Of a DNA stretch of 64,000 bases, positions 22,862 to 38,650 are shown piece by piece. Under the pieces are notes generated by a model. It saw only the letters and a list, made by a program, of their open reading frames with translations, searched no databases and was not told where the DNA came from. A program made the position numbers and the translations under genes. The number at the start of each line of letters is the position of its first letter. The stretch's first letter is position 1. Source of the DNA: Bradyrhizobium sp. NP1 (GTDB lineage Bacteria; Pseudomonadota; Alphaproteobacteria; Rhizobiales; Xanthobacteraceae); NCBI RefSeq assembly GCF_030378205.1, contig NZ_CP127385.1, forward strand, positions 4,504,001 through 4,568,000, written 5' to 3'.

Positions 22862-23767
22862 GTTGATCTCCTTCAAGGCCTGATCGCGTCGCGATGCTGT
22901 TAAATGAAACGCTTCGTCGTAATGAACGTCCCTTCTCGACATAGGCCGAGCCATTGTTGCCCACTGCCGGGCGAAAACGGGCGCGCCCGCTCGTCGAGCA
23001 CGGTCAATGGTCAAGCATGAGCACAGATGTCTTTACGCAAGATCACGTGTCTTGCGCCGGCGATGTCCGCCTTGGCTCCTAGCGGACCCAAGGCGACGTC
23101 CGGCCGGAGGCCGCTTTCTTTTCGGTCGCCTCAATGACCTCGGCGTTGCTCCGCCCGAGGGCTCTCACGCGCATCTCGCAGAAGATGTCCTATCATCCAG
23201 CCTTTGAAGGTCAGCAGCACTGGCCCATCTGCAAGTCGCGCCTGATATTGCAAGGCGAAACGGCGACGTGTCGGCCATACGGTCGGATGCGCAATCACGA
23301 CTTTACGACGCGCCAAATCCGCTGGCAACAACGCTTTGGTCGCGATTGCAATGCCATTCCCGCGGCCGCCGCCTCGATCGCAAGGCCAATGCTTCCCAGG
23401 CCGCTGCCGTACTCCGTTGACGCGGTGCCAAATCGCGCGTGAGCGAGCCGGCGACACCGACCGCCACGCCGCGGTCGAGACGCCGGCGCGTCATGGTGGC
23501 CGGCCGTCTTCGATGGCATCAAGGAAGCCCGTTTCGACCGATCCGCGGCGAGCAAATTCGAACGTCGAAAGCTTCGCTCTCCTTCGCTCACTCTTGTCGG
23601 GATTTTGATTGGAATTGTCGTCGCGGAGTTGCATTGCCTGAGCCGAACCACTTTTGCTAGCTTTGAGCGACTGGTCGCCCCGGGTCGAAAAGCAACCGAG
23701 ATGCGGCCAGACGTTCGTGCCATTGGCGGCAGGACAGTTGCTTGAACAAGAATGCAAAGGGGAAGCC
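22862..23767. other. Gene-poor interval of about 900 bases
   Basis: The interval lies between the MHS transporter and the Tat carbonic anhydrase. The only coding-like content is a decayed LysR-type regulator fragment on the minus strand at about 23131-23458. The rest (22862-23130 and 23459-23767) shows no conserved reading frame, repeat or RNA that I can support, apart from the likely promoter regions of the flanking genes. Confidence 0.5.
23131..23458 (-). pseudogene. Remnant of a LysR-type regulator (GcvA-like C-terminus)
   Basis: Two minus-strand frames together give the end of a LysR effector domain. One frame reads EYGSGLGSIGLAIEAAAAG (about 23368-23430). A second, offset by one base near 23365, reads GNGIAIATKALLPADLARRKVV and FKGWMIGHLLRD to the stop at 23131. 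These match the AAAxGxGIAL and xFRDWL regions of GcvA-type regulators. No DNA-binding domain is visible upstream. The gene is truncated and frameshifted. Confidence 0.5.
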
Positions 23768-24496
23768 ATGTGCGATTTCTGCCAACGCAAGACAAGCGCG
23801 CTGTCGCGGCGCGCCTTCGGCCTGTTCGCGATGTCGTCGGCGGCGCTGCTGCTGGCCCGGGCGGCGGCCGATGCAAAGGAAGCGAAATCGCCGCCCAAGC
23901 CGGAAAACGTCCTGGCGCCTGATGGCGCGCTGAAGCGCCTGCGCGAAGGAAACGAGCGCTATGTCGAAGGCGAGATGCGGCGACACGACTTCAAGCGCGA
24001 GCGGGAAGCTTTGGCCGGCGGACAGAATCCCTATGCGGCGATATTGAGCTGCGCCGACTCCCGCATCGCGCCTGAATATGCATTCGACAGCAGCCGCGGC
24101 GACCTCTTCGTGTGCCGCGTAGCCGGCAATTTCGCCAGCGACGAGACTGTCGCAAGCATGGAATATGCGGTCGCGGTGCTCAGCACGCCGCTGATCCTGG
24201 TGCTGGGTCACGAGGCGTGCGGCGCGGTCGAGGCCACGATCAAGTCGATCAAGGAGGACAAGCCGCTGCCCGGCCACATGCCGTCCCTGGTCGAGGCGAT
24301 TGCGCCCGCGGTCAAGGCGGTGGCCTCGCACAGCGGCGATACGCTCAGCAATGCGATTCGGCAGAACGTGTTCGACAATGTGGCCAAGCTGAAATCGGCC
24401 ACGCCGATCCTCAGTGCTGCGGTCAACGACGGGAAGCTGAAGGTCGTCGGCGGCATTTACCGGCTGAAGAGCGGAAAGGTCGAGCTGCTCGCCTGA
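23768..24496 (+). CDS. Tat-exported beta-class carbonic anhydrase
   Basis: This 242-residue enzyme interconverts CO2 and bicarbonate with zinc. The N-terminus has a twin-arginine signal (SRRAFGLFAMSSAALLLARA, about 13-32), implying folded export to the periplasm, unlike most beta-CAs. The zinc ligands are in place: C95, D97 and R99 in CADSR, and H148 and C151 in GHEACG. The start at 23768 has AAGGGGAAG directly upstream. It precedes the phosphoesterase-cytochrome-imelysin cassette by 266 bases on the same strand. Confidence 0.9.
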   Translation: MCDFCQRKTSALSRRAFGLFAMSSAALLLARAAADAKEAKSPPKPENVLAPDGALKRLREGNERYVEGEMRRHDFKREREALAGGQNPYAAILSCADSRIAPEYAFDSSRGDLFVCRVAGNFASDETVASMEYAVAVLSTPLILVLGHEACGAVEATIKSIKEDKPLPGHMPSLVEAIAPAVKAVASHSGDTLSNAIRQNVFDNVAKLKSATPILSAAVNDGKLKVVGGIYRLKSGKVELLA

Positions 24497-24640
24497 GCCT
24501 CGAGCCCCATCGGCCACGTTAGCTCGGCGTAAAGCTGTTTTCCAATCCGTCGCCGCCGGTCAAGCCCCGGCGCGGGGTCGCGCGCCTCGCGCCCTCGCGA
24601 CGGTGTCACCATTCGATCACGTCGCCGAACCTTCAAGGCA

Positions 24641-24669
24641 TTGTCACGGATGGTTCATCGCGTTGTGAC
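24641..24669 (+). promoter_or_regulatory. Candidate Pho-box-like triple repeat upstream of the phosphoesterase
   Basis: Three loosely related heptamers at an 11-base period, TTGTCAC, GGTTCAT and TTGTGAC, lie about 100 bases upstream of the phosphoesterase start. They resemble the PhoB direct-repeat layout (CTGTCAT-N4-CTGTCAT), but each matches only 4-5 of 7 positions. The idea rests partly on the gene's likely phosphatase role. Confidence 0.25.
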
Positions 24670-24762
24670 CCAGCTCTGAAAACTTTCCCCGCGGCGCCAC
24701 CCCCACCCTTCGCTGCGCCAAAAAACCTATCTCATTAAATACTCAAGAAGGAGGCAATCTTC

Positions 24763-26637
24763 ATGCGTTTGCCCATAACTCTCGGTCTGGTCTCTACTTT
24801 CGCCTTGTTGATCGGCGGCGCCGGCGCCATCGCTCAAGACCACGATCGCGACGATTTCCGCAATGGAACGCGCACACCCATCAAGCATCTGGTCGTGATC
24901 TTCCAGGAGAACATTTCCTACGACCACTATTTCGGCACGTACCCCAAGGCGATGAACCTGCCCGGCGAGACGCCGTTCAAGGCAAAGCGCAACACCCCGC
25001 TCAACAACAACCTTGTAACGCCGCTCGACGTCAATCATCACTTTGAGCCGATTGGCGAATTGAACCTCCTCGCCAACAACCCGAACGCCAACCCCAACGC
25101 CCCGGTTGGACCCAACAACTCCCGGCACAACGGCACTGATGCCGCCAATCCGTTCCGGCTTTCGCCCAGCCAGGCGTCGACCGCCGACCAGGGCCACAAC
25201 GACATGCCGGAGCAGGCCGCCTACAACAACGGCAACATGGACGGCTTCCCGGCGTGGGTCGGCAGTGCCGGCACCGCCTCCAGCGGCCCGCAGGCGCCCC
25301 CAGCCGCCGTCGCCACCAAGGGCCTGGCGATGGGCTACTACGACGGCAACACCGTCACGGCGCTGTGGAACTACGCCCAGCACTACGCGATGAACGACAA
25401 CAGCTACGCGACCCAGTTCGGCCCTTCGTCGCCGGGCGCCATCAACCTGATCTCGGGCCAGACCAACGGCTTCGCCCACGCCACCAACGTGCAGGACGCC
25501 AGCGGCAATCTGCTTCACTCGACCCACGAAGCATTCGGCGACGCCAGCCACACGTCGAGCAACATCACCCTGATTGGTGACGGCGATCCCGAGCAGGACA
25601 AGTGCTCCAACCCGACCATCGACCAGGTGACCATGGCAGGCCCCAACATCGGCGACCTGCTCAACAAGCGCAACATCACCTGGGGCTGGTTCGAGGGCGG
25701 CTTCAACCTGCAGACCGTCAACGCGAACGGCAGCACCGGCTGCGCGCGCTTCACGGCTGCAACCACCGCCGCGAGCCCCGCCTCCGCGTCGACCGACTAC
25801 ATCCCGCACCACCAGCCGTTCCAGTATTATGCGTCGACCCGCAACCCGAACCACCTGCCGCCGCACTCGGTGGCATCGGTCGGGTTCACCAACATCCCGG
25901 GTACCCGCACGGCGGATCCGGCGAACCACCAGTACGACACCGACGACTTCTTCGCGGCGCTCCATGCCGGCAACCTGCCGTCGGTGACCTTCCTCAAGGC
26001 GCCGGCATTCCAGGACGGCCATGCCGGCTATTCCGACCCGATCGACGAGCAGCACTTCATCATCAAGGTGAGCAACGCGCTGCAGGAAAGCAAGTTCTGG
26101 TCGAGCACCGCGATCGTCATCCTGTATGACGACTCCGACGGCTGGTACGATCACCAGATGCCGCCGATCGTCAACCCGTCGTTCAACCCGACCACCGACG
26201 TGCTCAACGCCGCCGGCGTCTGCAACGTCGGCCTGCAGCAGGGTCGCCCGACGCGCAATGTGCCGCTCAACGGCGCGTTCGGCCAGTCGGCGTGGGGCCG
26301 CTGCGCGTACGGCACCCGCCAGCCGCTGCTGGTGATCTCGCCGTTCGCCAAGCACAACCACATCGACCACACGCTGACCGACCAGACCTCGGTCCTGAAG
26401 TTCATCGAGGACAACTGGCTCGATGGCGAGCGCATCCAGCCGGGCGGCTCGCTCGACACCATGGCGGGCACGATCGAACACATGTTCGACTTCGACCGCC
26501 GCGTCGACAATGACGACCACAAGCTGATCCTCGATCCATCGACCGGAGCGGTGGTGTTCGCCAGCCACCGGGACGACGATGACGACCATGATCACGGTCA
26601 CGACCACGACCACGACCACGATCACGATCGTCACTGA
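24763..26637 (+). CDS. Exported phosphoesterase (PF04185 phospholipase C/acid phosphatase family) with His/Asp-rich tail
   Basis: This 624-residue protein has a Sec signal peptide (residues 1-24, ending GAGAIAQ). The catalytic domain begins with HLVVIFQENISYDHYFGTYP and has later metal/phosphate motifs VILYDDSDGWYDHQ and LLVISPFAKHNHIDHTLTD. It should hydrolyse phosphate esters in the periplasm. The last 23 residues contain 9 His and 11 Asp, a metal-binding-type tail not usual for the family. It starts the cassette with the di-heme cytochrome 62 bases downstream. The ATG has AAGGAGGC 7 bases upstream. Confidence 0.88.
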   Translation: MRLPITLGLVSTFALLIGGAGAIAQDHDRDDFRNGTRTPIKHLVVIFQENISYDHYFGTYPKAMNLPGETPFKAKRNTPLNNNLVTPLDVNHHFEPIGELNLLANNPNANPNAPVGPNNSRHNGTDAANPFRLSPSQASTADQGHNDMPEQAAYNNGNMDGFPAWVGSAGTASSGPQAPPAAVATKGLAMGYYDGNTVTALWNYAQHYAMNDNSYATQFGPSSPGAINLISGQTNGFAHATNVQDASGNLLHSTHEAFGDASHTSSNITLIGDGDPEQDKCSNPTIDQVTMAGPNIGDLLNKRNITWGWFEGGFNLQTVNANGSTGCARFTAATTAASPASASTDYIPHHQPFQYYASTRNPNHLPPHSVASVGFTNIPGTRTADPANHQYDTDDFFAALHAGNLPSVTFLKAPAFQDGHAGYSDPIDEQHFIIKVSNALQESKFWSSTAIVILYDDSDGWYDHQMPPIVNPSFNPTTDVLNAAGVCNVGLQQGRPTRNVPLNGAFGQSAWGRCAYGTRQPLLVISPFAKHNHIDHTLTDQTSVLKFIEDNWLDGERIQPGGSLDTMAGTIEHMFDFDRRVDNDDHKLILDPSTGAVVFASHRDDDDDHDHGHDHDHDHDHDRH

Positions 26638-26699
26638 GCAGATCGTTTGAGATCAGAATGCGCGGGCCAGGGCGGCGCCCCGGCCCGCGCGAATGCAAT

Positions 26700-28121
26700 A
26701 TGAAGACCATGACCGAGTACGCGAAGCGACGTCCTGCAAGCTTGCGGCGCGGCACCAGCGCCGTTGCCGGCCTTTTTCTGCTGCTGGCGCTGCCCCACGA
26801 CGCGACCTCGTTTCCGATCGACGGGGATCAGACGGTGCTGCCGGCGGGCAGTGAGCTCAACGAGGATGCGGACTACGTGCCGCACGAGATACTGCGTTCG
26901 GAATATAGCGGCGACCGCACCTCCTATGTGGTGGCGCTCGGCGATCTCGCCTTCAACTCGCCATCGATCCTCGGCGACGTCGCGCGCCGCGCCGGCATCA
27001 GTTGCGGCACATGCCACGTCGGCGGCGCGAGCAACGCCAGGCTGTTCATTCCCGGCCTGTCGACCCGACCCGGCACGTTCGACACCACCGGCGCGCTGTT
27101 CAACCCCAAGGCCGACAATCACGTGCTCGATCCGGTGCGGGTTCCGAGCCTGCGCGGCGCGCGCTACCTCGCGCCCTACGGACACGACGGCCGCACGGCG
27201 TCGCTCCGCGACTTCGTGCGCAACGTCATCGTCGGCGAGTTCGCCGGGCCTGAGCCGTCGCCGTCGACCCTCGACGCCATCGTCGCCTATGTCCAGGAGA
27301 TCGATTTCCTGCCCAACCCCAGGCTCGGCGACCGCGGTCGCCTCACCGCGACCGCGAACGAGGCCGAGCGCCGCGGCGAAGCCCTGTTCGCAAAGCCGTT
27401 TCCGCATGATCCAAATCTCAGCTGCGCCGGCTGTCACCCCGCGGCGGGCGCGTTCGTCGATCACCTGCAGCACGACATCGGCTCGGGCGGACTTCACAAG
27501 ACCCCCACCCTGCTCAACGCGAACTTCAACGCGCCCTATTTTCATGACGGCCGCTACGACAGCCTTGATCAGGTCGTCGATCATTTCGACCATGTCTACG
27601 AACTCGGGCTGTCGACGCAGGACCGCGGCGACCTCGTCGCCTATCTGCGCGCCGTCGGCGATGCGCGCCAGCCTTTCGACAGCGATGGCGTGACGACCCG
27701 CTTCAAGGACATCGACACTTTTTCGCTGCTACTCGGCCAGGCGATCACGGCGCGGGACCGCGATGCGATCAACCTTGCGGCCGAAACCCTGGGCGGCGAG
27801 TTCCGCGACCTTGCCGAACGGTTTCCCGACCACCGCGACACCGCGGTGACCGACGCGCTGGTCGAGCGCCGCATGGTCCGCGCGGCCGTGAAGGACGTGG
27901 TGATCAGCTTGCGCCGGATCGCCATGGCGGTTTCGGCCGGCGATCTCGACGCGGCCACCGCCGAATACAAGGTCTACTACGGCCTCACCTTTTCCAGGGC
28001 GATGCCGCTCTTGCGCGGCACCGAGCCGTGGTCGCTGTTCAATCCCACCGTGCGGGCGGCCCATGACGCCGAGCGGCGGCGGCTGCTGCGCGCGCCGGCG
28101 CAGGCGGAGCTGCAGCGATGA
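26700..28121 (+). CDS. Exported di-heme cytochrome c peroxidase/MauG-like protein
   Basis: This 473-residue protein has an N-terminal hydrophobic export signal (about 19-37). Heme c sites are CGTCH (102-106) and CAGCH (242-246). Two homologous halves each carry an APYxHDGR motif (LAPYGHDGRTASL and APYFHDGRYDSL), as in bacterial CCP/MauG proteins. A helical C-terminal region (about 345-473) is not part of the standard fold. The start at 26700 was chosen because an earlier frame adds only a short Pro/Arg tract. Its stop overlaps the imelysin start. It may oxidise a metal or a partner protein. Confidence 0.87.
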   Translation: MKTMTEYAKRRPASLRRGTSAVAGLFLLLALPHDATSFPIDGDQTVLPAGSELNEDADYVPHEILRSEYSGDRTSYVVALGDLAFNSPSILGDVARRAGISCGTCHVGGASNARLFIPGLSTRPGTFDTTGALFNPKADNHVLDPVRVPSLRGARYLAPYGHDGRTASLRDFVRNVIVGEFAGPEPSPSTLDAIVAYVQEIDFLPNPRLGDRGRLTATANEAERRGEALFAKPFPHDPNLSCAGCHPAAGAFVDHLQHDIGSGGLHKTPTLLNANFNAPYFHDGRYDSLDQVVDHFDHVYELGLSTQDRGDLVAYLRAVGDARQPFDSDGVTTRFKDIDTFSLLLGQAITARDRDAINLAAETLGGEFRDLAERFPDHRDTAVTDALVERRMVRAAVKDVVISLRRIAMAVSAGDLDAATAEYKVYYGLTFSRAMPLLRGTEPWSLFNPTVRAAHDAERRRLLRAPAQAELQR

Positions 28122-28936
28122 ACAGCGGAGACATCATGATGAAAGTCGCCGACTGCTGGATATGCCCGCTTCTGCTGGGCACGATCCTGGCGCTGGCCGT
28201 CGTGCCGCAGGCGGGTGCGGCGCCGCTCGAGGCCACCGCCGAGAGCTATCGGCACTACCTGATCGACGACATCGGCCAGACGCTCGCTGGCGCCCGTGCC
28301 CTGCGCGAGCGCCTTGCCGCCCACGACCTCGACGGCGCCCGCAAGGCCTGGATCGCGGCACGCACCGGCTGGGAGCGCTCGGAGGTCTTCACCAGCGGCT
28401 TCGTCCCCGAGCTTGATCAGCAGATCGACGCCTGGCCGAACGCCAGCCACGGCTTCCACGGCATCGAGGCCACGTTGTTCGGCGCGAGCCGCAGCACCGA
28501 TGCCGGCGCGGAAACCGACGCGCTGATTGCCCACCTCGCCGACCTCAAGGCGCAGCTCGACCATGTCGAACTCGCACCACAGCGCCTGCTCAACGGCATC
28601 GCGCGGCTGGCCTTCGAGATCGGCGGCAACAAAGCTGATGGCGGCGAGTCGCGGCTAAGCGGCACCTCGCTCAACGACATGCAAAGCAATGCCGACGGCA
28701 TCGCCCTCGCCTACCGGGTGGTCTTCGCCGACGCCATGGCGGCCGGCGATCCAAAGTTGGCCGCGGCGGCGCGCACCGCCATCGAGCAAGTGCAAGCGAC
28801 CGTCAAGATCTCCGACCTGCGCAATCTCGACGCCGACAAGCTGCGCGCCGGCAGCGAAGAGCTGATCGCGCTGCTGCAGACGGCCGCTCCCAAGATCGGC
28901 CTGGACAAGCCGACGCTCGAGGAAGGCGCCCGCTAG
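28118..28936 (+). CDS. Imelysin / EfeO-type (M75-like) periplasmic protein
   Basis: This 272-residue protein has a signal peptide (hydrophobic run about 18-35, ending AGAAP). It shows the imelysin/EfeO core: WIAARTGWERSEVF, then LDQQIDAWPN and HGFHGIEATLFG. The family's conserved GxHxxE-like motif appears here as HGFHGIE. Such proteins bind iron or copper or help its uptake. The ATG at 28118 overlaps the cytochrome stop (ATGA); the MM at 28136/28139 is an equally plausible start. Genetic coupling to a cytochrome suggests metal oxidation with uptake. Confidence 0.85.
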   Translation: MNSGDIMMKVADCWICPLLLGTILALAVVPQAGAAPLEATAESYRHYLIDDIGQTLAGARALRERLAAHDLDGARKAWIAARTGWERSEVFTSGFVPELDQQIDAWPNASHGFHGIEATLFGASRSTDAGAETDALIAHLADLKAQLDHVELAPQRLLNGIARLAFEIGGNKADGGESRLSGTSLNDMQSNADGIALAYRVVFADAMAAGDPKLAAAARTAIEQVQATVKISDLRNLDADKLRAGSEELIALLQTAAPKIGLDKPTLEEGAR

Positions 28937-28953
28937 GCTACGTCGGCCGCGGG

Positions 28954-30123
28954 CTACTTCACCGGCTCCAGCACCGAGACGTAGTTGGCGACCGCGGCAC
29001 CGCCCATGTTGAAGATGCCGGCGATTTTGGCATCCTTGATCTGCATGCCCTCGGGCGCCTGGCCTGCAAGCTGCATCGCCGTCATCACATGCATGGAGAC
29101 GCCGGTCGCGCCGATCGGGTGACCCTTGGCCTTCAGGCCGCCGGACGGATTGACCGGCAGCTTGCCGCCCTTCTGGGTCCAGCCTTCCAGGATCGCGCGA
29201 GCGCCCTGCCCCTTCGGCGTCAGCCCCATCGCTTCATATTCGATCAATTCCGCAATGGTGAAGCAGTCATGGGTCTCGACAAAGGAGAGATCGGTGAGCG
29301 CAACGCCCGCCTTTTCCAGCGCGCGCTGCCACGCCACCGTGCAGCCTTCGAACTGCAGGATGTCGCGCTTCGACATCGGCAGGAAATCCTGCGCGTGCGC
29401 GGTGGCGCGGAAGCTGATCGCCTTGCCCATGCCCTTTGCGGTCTCGGCATCGGTCAAGACCAGCGCCGCGGCGCCATCCGACACCAGCGAGCAGTCGGTG
29501 CGCTTCAGGGGGCCGGCGACGTAAGGGTTCTTCTCGCTCTCGGAGCGGCAGAAGTCGAAGCCGAAATCCTTGCGCATCTGCGCATAGGGATTGGCGACGC
29601 CGTTCTTGTGGTTCTTCGCCGCGATCATCGCCAGCGCATCGGACTGGTCGCCATATTTCTGGAAGTAGCCCTGCGCGATCTTGCCGAACACGCCGGCAAA
29701 GCCGCCGACCGTGTCGCCGTCCTCAGGCAGATACGAGGCTTTCAGCAGGTTGCGGCCGATCTCGGGGCCGGGCGTCCGGGTCATCTGCTCGACGCCGACC
29801 ACCAGCACGACCTTGGCCGCGCCGGCCGCGATCGCGCGGATGCCCTGGTGCACGGCGGCCGATCCGGTGGCGCAGGCGTTTTCCACCCGGGTCGCCGGCT
29901 TGAAGCGCAGATGCGGATCGGCCTGCAGCACCAGCGAAGCCGTAAAGTCCTGCGGGGAGAAGCCGGCATTGAAATGGCCGAGCACGATCTCGTCGACATC
30001 GGCGGCGGCAATGCCGGCATCCGCCAGCGCCTCATTGGCAACCTTCACCACCAGGCTTTCGACGGTTTCGGTATCGAATTTCCCGAACGGCGTATGCGCC
30101 CATCCGACAATGCTCGCTGTCAT
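28954..30123 (-). CDS. Thiolase (acetyl-CoA acetyltransferase, SCP-x-like)
   Basis: This 389-residue thiolase retains the nucleophilic Cys in VENACATGSAAVHQG (about residue 84). It also has THDCFTIAELIEYEAMGL, NPSGGLKAKGHPIGATG and a FNMGGAAVANYVS C-terminus. It should be catalytically competent, in contrast to the Cys-less protein at 16150. It is convergent with the imelysin cassette. It lies 56 bases downstream of the KDPG aldolase gene on the same strand, so read-through from the sugar operon is possible but a functional link is not obvious. Confidence 0.88.
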   Translation of the reverse strand: MTASIVGWAHTPFGKFDTETVESLVVKVANEALADAGIAAADVDEIVLGHFNAGFSPQDFTASLVLQADPHLRFKPATRVENACATGSAAVHQGIRAIAAGAAKVVLVVGVEQMTRTPGPEIGRNLLKASYLPEDGDTVGGFAGVFGKIAQGYFQKYGDQSDALAMIAAKNHKNGVANPYAQMRKDFGFDFCRSESEKNPYVAGPLKRTDCSLVSDGAAALVLTDAETAKGMGKAISFRATAHAQDFLPMSKRDILQFEGCTVAWQRALEKAGVALTDLSFVETHDCFTIAELIEYEAMGLTPKGQGARAILEGWTQKGGKLPVNPSGGLKAKGHPIGATGVSMHVMTAMQLAGQAPEGMQIKDAKIAGIFNMGGAAVANYVSVLEPVK

Positions 30124-37579: not shown

Positions 37580-38650
37580 ATGGCACGAAAGCGCAGCAAG
37601 CTGACCAAGGTCCGGCTGACCGAAGTGGCCAAACTGGCCGGCGTCAGCCCGATCACGGCCTCGCGCTTTTTCAGAAATCCCGAAGCACTCTCGGTCGGCA
37701 AGCGCGTGCGGGTCGAGAGTGCGGCCAAGGAACTCAGCTACGTTCCCAACCTTGCAGCGCGTGCGCTCGCCTCGCAGCGCACCGAGGTGATCGGCGTCCT
37801 GATCCCCTCGCTCACCAACAATGTGTTCGCCGACGTGCTGCGCGGCATCTACGATGCGGTCGACGGCAGCCGATACAGCATCCAGCTCGCCAATACCCGC
37901 TACAGCATTCTGCAGGAGGAAAAGCTGCTGCGGGTGTTCCTGACGCAGAAGCCGGCCGGGCTGATCGTGACCGGGATCGACCAGACCAGGGAGTCGCGCG
38001 CGATCATGGAAGCCTCCGATTGCCCGATCGTGCAGATCATGGAGATCGGCACCGAACCGGTCGACATGATGATCGGTTTCTCCCATTCAGATGCCGGTCG
38101 GGCGGCGATTTCCCACCTGCTCGCCGAAGGCTGCCGGCGGATCGGATTCCTCGGCGCGCGTATGGATCCGCGGGTGCAGCGGCGGTTTCTGGGTTACCAG
38201 GCTGCGATGACCGAAGCCGGCCTGTTCGACCAGAGCCTTGTGGTGACGACCCCGGCGCCGACCTCCGTCACGCTCGGCGGCACGTTGTTTGCTGATCTCC
38301 TGACAAAGGCGCCCGACACGGACGCGGTTTTCTGCGCCAATGACGACCTTGCCCTCGGCGTTCTGTTCGAGTGTCGCCGGCGCCATATTTCGGTACCGGA
38401 GCAGATGGCGATCGTCGGGTTCAACGACCTCGAATTCATGGGATCGGCCGTCCCGACACTGACGAGCGTGCGCACCAACCGCTACGAAATGGGCAGGAAC
38501 GCTGCGACGATGGTGATCGAGGCACTCGAAGGACGGCGACCGGAACAGCCGGTTGTCGACCTCGGTTACAGCGTGATGACACGGCAGAGTTCGACGCGGC
38601 GAGGCCACGCTGCTGCGTCCGCCCCGGTTCGAGAAAGCGTCCAAAATTGA
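37580..38650 (+). CDS. LacI family transcriptional regulator
   Basis: This 356-residue repressor has an N-terminal helix-turn-helix with hinge, VRLTEVAKLAGVSPITASRF (about 11-30), followed by a periplasmic-binding-protein-like effector domain (about 68-340) containing VIGVLIPSLTNNVFADVL and AIVGFNDLEFMGS. It is of the GntR/KdgR subgroup type. It sits between the sugar ABC operon and the dehydratase-SDR genes, with matching operators on both sides, so it probably represses both in the absence of a sugar acid. Confidence 0.9.
   Translation: MARKRSKLTKVRLTEVAKLAGVSPITASRFFRNPEALSVGKRVRVESAAKELSYVPNLAARALASQRTEVIGVLIPSLTNNVFADVLRGIYDAVDGSRYSIQLANTRYSILQEEKLLRVFLTQKPAGLIVTGIDQTRESRAIMEASDCPIVQIMEIGTEPVDMMIGFSHSDAGRAAISHLLAEGCRRIGFLGARMDPRVQRRFLGYQAAMTEAGLFDQSLVVTTPAPTSVTLGGTLFADLLTKAPDTDAVFCANDDLALGVLFECRRRHISVPEQMAIVGFNDLEFMGSAVPTLTSVRTNRYEMGRNAATMVIEALEGRRPEQPVVDLGYSVMTRQSSTRRGHAAASAPVRESVQN

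Follow-up and report, generated by a model that had tools for sequence, protein, structure and literature searches.

Each part of the locus described here has counterparts in better-known systems. The di-heme enzyme MbnH oxidises residues of its partner protein MbnP so that MbnP binds metal, and the Hxc system of Pseudomonas is a type II secretion system (T2SS) of phosphate starvation. Type II secretion under phosphate starvation is likewise described for ElpS of Caulobacter (PMC2996285) and, in a reference given by PMC5082522, for Xcp of Pseudomonas. In ferrous-iron transport by EfeUOB/M an M75 protein (imelysin) is paired with a periplasmic heme oxidase, and PMC9174327 presents an M75 protein with a heme peroxidase as the theme of EfeUOB. 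The PF04185 family includes acid phosphatases such as AcpA as well as phospholipases C. Here we consider three adjacent genes of Bradyrhizobium sp. NP1, a soil bacterium with root-nodule symbionts among its relatives, encoding a PF04185-type phosphoesterase, a di-heme cytochrome and an imelysin, within a stretch of 64,000 nucleotides of contig NZ_CP127385.1 (positions 4,504,001 to 4,568,000; hereafter the window). We propose that they form a phosphate-starvation operon under PhoB in which the phosphoesterase is accompanied by a redox/metal helper pair. To the whole of this chain we give a probability of about one half; its phosphate-control step, taken alone, we consider likely.

Compared with these systems, the parts belong to known families, and the new element is their arrangement together with the likely phosphate control. 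The phosphoesterase shares family, active-site motifs and nearest solved chain with AcpA and the other PF04185 enzymes; unlike them, it is encoded in a probable operon with a cytochrome and an imelysin, and it falls below the cut-offs of TIGR03397 acid_phos_Burk (143.1 vs 362.75) and TIGR03396 PC_PLC (118.5 vs 580.25). As in EfeUOB/M, an M75 protein is paired with a putative periplasmic heme oxidase, but the genome lacks FTR1, the heme protein is of the cytochrome c peroxidase (CCP)/MauG type rather than the DyP type, and a phosphoesterase is part of the cluster. In contrast to MbnH-MbnP and MauG-MADH, the cytochrome has a C-terminal four-helix bundle and an imelysin partner and misses the curated cut-offs for MbnH and MauG (TIGR04039 and TIGR03791; 45.7 of 362.85 and 38.8 of 443.85). 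Finally, the cassettes of relatives adjoin T2SS genes and phosphate control is likely, which recalls ElpS, Xcp and Hxc, although the window cassette lies away from the T2SS genes of its own genome and adds heme and metal proteins.

The initial annotation knew of no described system of this composition, and our search agrees: no description of imelysin with cytochrome and phosphoesterase was found, nor anything on imelysin and phosphate starvation, in a literature search outside which most subscription journals lay. For imelysin with cytochrome c peroxidase, Leptospira alone was returned, by title.

Pho-box-like array upstream of the phosphoesterase gene

The phosphoesterase promoter region contains the array TTGTCAC-GGAT-GGTTCAT-CGCG-TTGTGAC, with one further half-site on each side. 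In a phased score, which rates CTGTCAT-like half-sites in an 11-bp register against a consensus from E. coli, the array reached 11.6, 17.6 and 19.4 for two, three and four half-sites, and none of 200 first-order shuffles (resamplings) attained any of these values. Within the window no other three- or four-site match scores as high; the top two-site match lies elsewhere, at 38565. The pstS promoter of this genome, behind which lie a response-regulator gene and genes resembling pst and phoU (open reading frames named by eye), served as a positive control and was also reached by 0 of 200 shuffles.

The same pattern recurs in relatives. It precedes the orthologous phosphoesterase gene in L007, a Bradyrhizobium relative that is 82% identical, and in L058 (three-site score, 0 of 200 shuffles each), as well as three of the four orthologs that have no cytochrome (L154, L155 and L157). 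Many relatives hold a second phosphoesterase and a second cytochrome, and for all six promoters tested between these two genes no more than 6 of 200 shuffles attained the three-site score. A three-site score of at least 13 was found at 12 sites in 516,600 bases of related loci, and 11 of them, in nine of ten places, stood at pstS or at the cassettes. Because the array tops the three- and four-site matches and recurs before orthologs and before the second phosphoesterase/cytochrome pairs, we regard the trio as a probable operon of the Pho regulon, under putative PhoB control.

A different motif, not a Pho array, was seen upstream of the imelysin genes in L041, L045, L050, L052, L057 and L094, which share an element of the form GTCACAAA..C.GCATA followed by GACAAT.

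Neighbourhood and partner proteins

The initial annotation would count as refuted if the three genes were rarely neighbours outside this strain, and the genomes searched do not refute it. All three cluster in 20 of 149 related genomes, the NP1 genome included, on two contigs of metagenome-assembled genomes (MAGs) and on one conjugative Bradyrhizobium plasmid. The trio recurs within the genus, in other orders in relatives, but its spread is narrow. In the same 149 genomes, strong relatives of the cytochrome occur in the genus only, with one weaker relative in the order (G125).

The neighbour counts come from 38 cytochrome copies besides that of the window, namely 36 from 24 stretches (each at most 20 kb) of 21 genomes and two from MAG contigs; all were sampled because they hold this cytochrome, and they come mostly from one genus and are not independent. 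In 36 of the 38 the cytochrome has a PF04185-type gene no more than 700 bp away, the misses being the order-level copy L061 and the short copy L062, and these counts led us to reject chance neighbourhood. The neighbouring phosphoesterases, called by blastp at E 1e-10 against representatives (with a Pfam check on those of all three groups), fall into groups 3, 23 and 45, so the link between cytochrome and phosphoesterase is not one inherited pair; members of groups 3 and 23 share 23-30% identity with the phosphoesterase of the window. An imelysin stands directly beside the cytochrome in 22 of the 38 copies, and 18 of these 22 pairs overlap by four bases with the imelysin first, the cytochrome-first overlap being that of the window and L007. 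That the same three kinds of gene are kept together in different orders suggests that phosphate release and metal handling are done together.

The common order in relatives is imelysin, cytochrome, phosphoesterase and a protein of about 240 aa, beside T2SS genes; a gene for the T2SS prepilin peptidase is found no further than 1.1 kb from an imelysin-adjoining cytochrome in 18 of 38 rows. In a row on the conjugative plasmid p186_1 of Bradyrhizobium sp. 186 stand T2SS genes, an imelysin, a cytochrome, a phosphatase-family gene and the same extra protein. The genome's own T2SS genes, with a group-3 phosphoesterase, are found at 1.990-2.006 Mb (L063, G000:C1:1990000-2006000), away from the cassette, and this stretch gave no match to imelysin, cytochrome or the 240-aa protein, unlike the same place in relatives. 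The protein of about 240 aa, which looks exported and ends the imelysin-first operon (L057:11133-11912 and orthologs), had no Pfam match in the one member tested. In seven loci (for example L057:15520-19434 and L048:1372-4905) a large protein of 603-1,522 aa lies near the second phosphoesterase; it is possibly a surface or secreted protein, and the one tested contains DUF5801.

The imelysin belongs to the M75/EfeM family by its PF09375 match (82.2 bits, cut-off 23.5) and its HxxE motif, whose H114 and E117 align with the His and Glu of EfeM site III. That site is conserved in part: Tyr82, His126, Glu129, Glu189 and Asp190 of EfeM correspond to Trp78, His114, Glu117, Glu177 and Ser178 here. At site IV four of five residues are kept, in our own reading of the alignment, and the protein scores below the cut-off of the EfeO equivalog NF041757 (107 of 270). 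Given this similarity to EfeO/EfeM, and given that an M75 protein with a heme peroxidase is the EfeUOB theme, the cytochrome and imelysin might be an EfeOB-like ferrous-iron uptake unit that merely lies behind a phosphatase gene. We think this unlikely, as the genome has no FTR1/EfeU match in a search that was positive in 4 of 14 control genomes, and as 36 of 38 cytochromes have a PF04185-type neighbour, 14 of them with no imelysin directly beside.

The cytochrome is a member of the di-heme CCP/MauG superfamily by its PF03150 match (54.0 bits, above the cut-off), its two heme motifs, C102GTCH and C242AGCH (numbered from the start at 26700), and its predicted fold, which resembles MbnH, MauG and CCP. 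The structure model, built from 106 sequences in place of a poor 18-sequence model (pLDDT 50.8), is of protein without hemes, and a peroxidase role is putative. Its C-terminal bundle matches cytochrome b562, PsbQ and designed proteins, that is, helical bundles generally, and we set this match aside as uninformative. On the MbnH precedent, the cytochrome could be a MauG/MbnH-like maturase that oxidises imelysin residues for metal binding. This too seems improbable, because the protein scores far from both curated models and the second cytochromes of relatives lie about 4.5 kb from an imelysin; moreover, the tryptophans at the W78 and W106 positions also occur in the imelysins of L133 and L134 and so are no sign of modification.

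The CCP fold of the model and the PF03150 match would also suit a periplasmic peroxidase of the ordinary kind, which clears hydrogen peroxide, with an imelysin that binds loose iron and a phosphate link due to general stress co-regulation. Within the genus, however, this type of cytochrome is hardly ever found outside phosphoesterase neighbourhoods (the same 36 of 38), and we regard the explanation as distinctly unlikely.

The phosphoesterase (PF04185, 211.9 bits, cut-off 23) has the AcpA acid phosphatase structure 2d1g as its nearest solved relative (E 6.9e-100), and its QEN, FGPS and DDSD motifs align with the active-site Glu-Asn, nucleophile Ser and Asp-Asp of that chain. The equivalent residues of NPC4 are given in PMC9837106. 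The enzyme ends in an Asp/His-rich tail, with ten histidines in its final 40 residues, but similar tails with two to four His occur in the L154-L157 orthologs, which lack the other two genes, and such a tail therefore does not distinguish the trio. The 36 phosphoesterase neighbours might suggest that the cytochrome matures the phosphoesterase itself, which we consider very improbable. In four genomes without a close cytochrome, two of which are fragmented (completeness 93 and 95%), enzymes 63-67% identical occur, and the best cytochrome match there has E 9.8e-12 vs 4.8e-243 in the NP1 genome. In addition, nine positions separate three partnered from four unpartnered phosphoesterases, and none has Trp, Tyr, Cys or His on the partnered side; the unpartnered side has one His and no Trp, Tyr or Cys.

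Proposed role of the cassette

The reading that we favour is that PhoB drives ester cleavage and that a metal is oxidised and held alongside it. When phosphate is low, PhoB would bind the array and drive, presumably on one transcript, a secreted phosphatase or phosphodiesterase of the AcpA group that cuts phosphate from organic esters. The cytochrome, a di-heme c-type oxidase or peroxidase, and the imelysin, an M75 metal-binding protein, would be coupled in translation and act as one pair in the periplasm; most likely they would oxidise and hold a redox metal, iron first and copper second, released with or bound near phosphate esters. We assign redox metal handling to the pair since an M75 protein is coupled to a heme oxidase, as in EfeOB. 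The cytochrome nearly always has a phosphoesterase neighbour whereas phosphoesterases also occur without the cytochrome, an asymmetry that makes the pair look like an add-on to phosphate release and not like a maturation step. The initial annotation had likewise joined phosphate-ester cleavage, perhaps of a metal-organophosphate complex, with metal oxidation and capture; the phosphate half has been strengthened by the Pho-box-like array, and the metal half, with that complex as a candidate substrate, is put forward from family knowledge.

Several observations weigh against this reading. The plain count of CTGTCAT-N4-CTGTCAT was not significant at the window promoter (43 of 100 shuffles equalled it), and the phased score, with its E. 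coli consensus, was for that reason adopted and designed after the pattern had been seen. The L156 ortholog has no array upstream, strong sites lie away from the gene in L156, L157, L158 and L159, and the promoters of imelysin-first operons mostly lack the array, 1 of 14 having a three-site score reached by at most 5 of 200 shuffles. Two of the EfeM site III residues, Tyr82 and Asp190, are replaced in the imelysin; the metal of the cassette is a candidate only, iron or copper being suggested by what is known of the families; and cytochrome relatives outside the genus adjoin other genes.

In acid soils, home to many of these bacteria, phosphate occurs bound to iron. In a more far-reaching version of our proposal, which we offer as tentative and rather doubtful, the cassette would be a system for obtaining phosphorus from iron: along with its phosphoesterase, the phosphate-starved cell would export an iron oxidase driven by heme and an imelysin that holds iron. 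Organic phosphate bound to iron would in this way be opened, its phosphate cut off and its iron kept away. The cytochrome family would then be a wider partner in phosphorus acquisition, recruited by three phosphoesterase groups; on Rhodobacterales and Roseibium plasmids its members have mntR on one side and a PhnD-type transporter on the other. If phosphate release is indeed coupled to heme and metal chemistry here, the cluster would offer a genetic entry point to the release of iron-bound phosphorus by root-associated bacteria. It would also hint at a function for a large, unassigned di-heme family, to which 2669 of 7998 candidates scored belong at E 1e-20 or better.

Gene layout and more distant relatives

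Features of the cassette, in window coordinates
Feature	Position	Strand	Details
Five Pho-box-like half-sites, 11-bp register	24630..24680	+	phosphoesterase promoter region; phased score vs shuffles
Phosphoesterase, PF04185, AcpA-like, Asp/His-rich C-terminal tail	24763..26637	+	624 aa; putatively exported (by eye)
Intercistronic hairpin, phosphoesterase/cytochrome	26660..26690	+	-34.8 kcal/mol; equivalent in L007
Di-heme CCP/MauG-fold cytochrome, C-terminal four-helix bundle	26700 (or 26709)..28121	+	PF03150, two CxxCH
Imelysin (M75) with HxxE motif	28118..28936	+	272 aa; PF09375; start shares ATGA (28118-28121) with cytochrome stop

The layout first described for the locus holds throughout: three genes on one strand whose products exceed their family cut-offs and have signal-peptide-like N-termini (judged by eye rather than by a predictor, so that export is putative), a CCP/MauG-like cytochrome with two CxxCH motifs, a four-base overlap of the last two genes, and a gap of 62 bases between the first two, given a cytochrome start at 26700. 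The alternative start at 26709 aligns with L007, and a mechanically called ATG at 26658 touches the conserved hairpin. In L007 the equivalent hairpin has -34.7 kcal/mol, with outer bases changed and pairing kept; the window copy has no U-run. It may act as a stabiliser or a partial stop that gives more phosphoesterase than helper proteins. Scans of 23500-29200 for sigma-70 promoters and terminators gave no match.

The upstream gene encodes, as the initial annotation had it, a carbonic anhydrase, of the beta class (PF00484) and with a twin-arginine-like (Tat) leader by eye. We exclude it from the cassette, as its promoter has no Pho-like array (two-site score equalled by 155 of 200 shuffles) and tblastn against L007 at E 1e-5 gave no match.

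In the samples searched, the trio occurs outside the genus on one alphaproteobacterial MAG contig only. Among 299 genomes of the phylum, PF04185 was found in 43 and PF09375 in 72, side by side in the NP1 genome only (adjacency judged by eye from match lists), and a profile of the imelysins of the cassettes matched 10 of the 298 others, at best with E 9.4e-23 vs 1.9e-124 for the window. Cytochrome matches at E 1e-20 were present in 28 of 385 genomes of the class, NP1 included, and 20 class-level stretches around such relatives, some cut by contig ends, held no imelysin or PF04185 match. One neighbour each was scanned in eight of the 20: TldD/PmbA (3), M20 peptidase, MAPEG, serine acetyltransferase, an IF-2B-family gene and a phosphonate-binding protein. 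On the plasmid loci L095, L096 and L097 (two of Rhodobacterales, one of Roseibium) a longer cytochrome is flanked by mntR on one side and by a phosphonate-type ABC transporter on the other; in these and in L101, cytochrome relatives of 617-632 aa precede a binding protein of the phosphate/phosphite/phosphonate type, an arrangement that is possibly a manganese- or phosphonate-linked operon.
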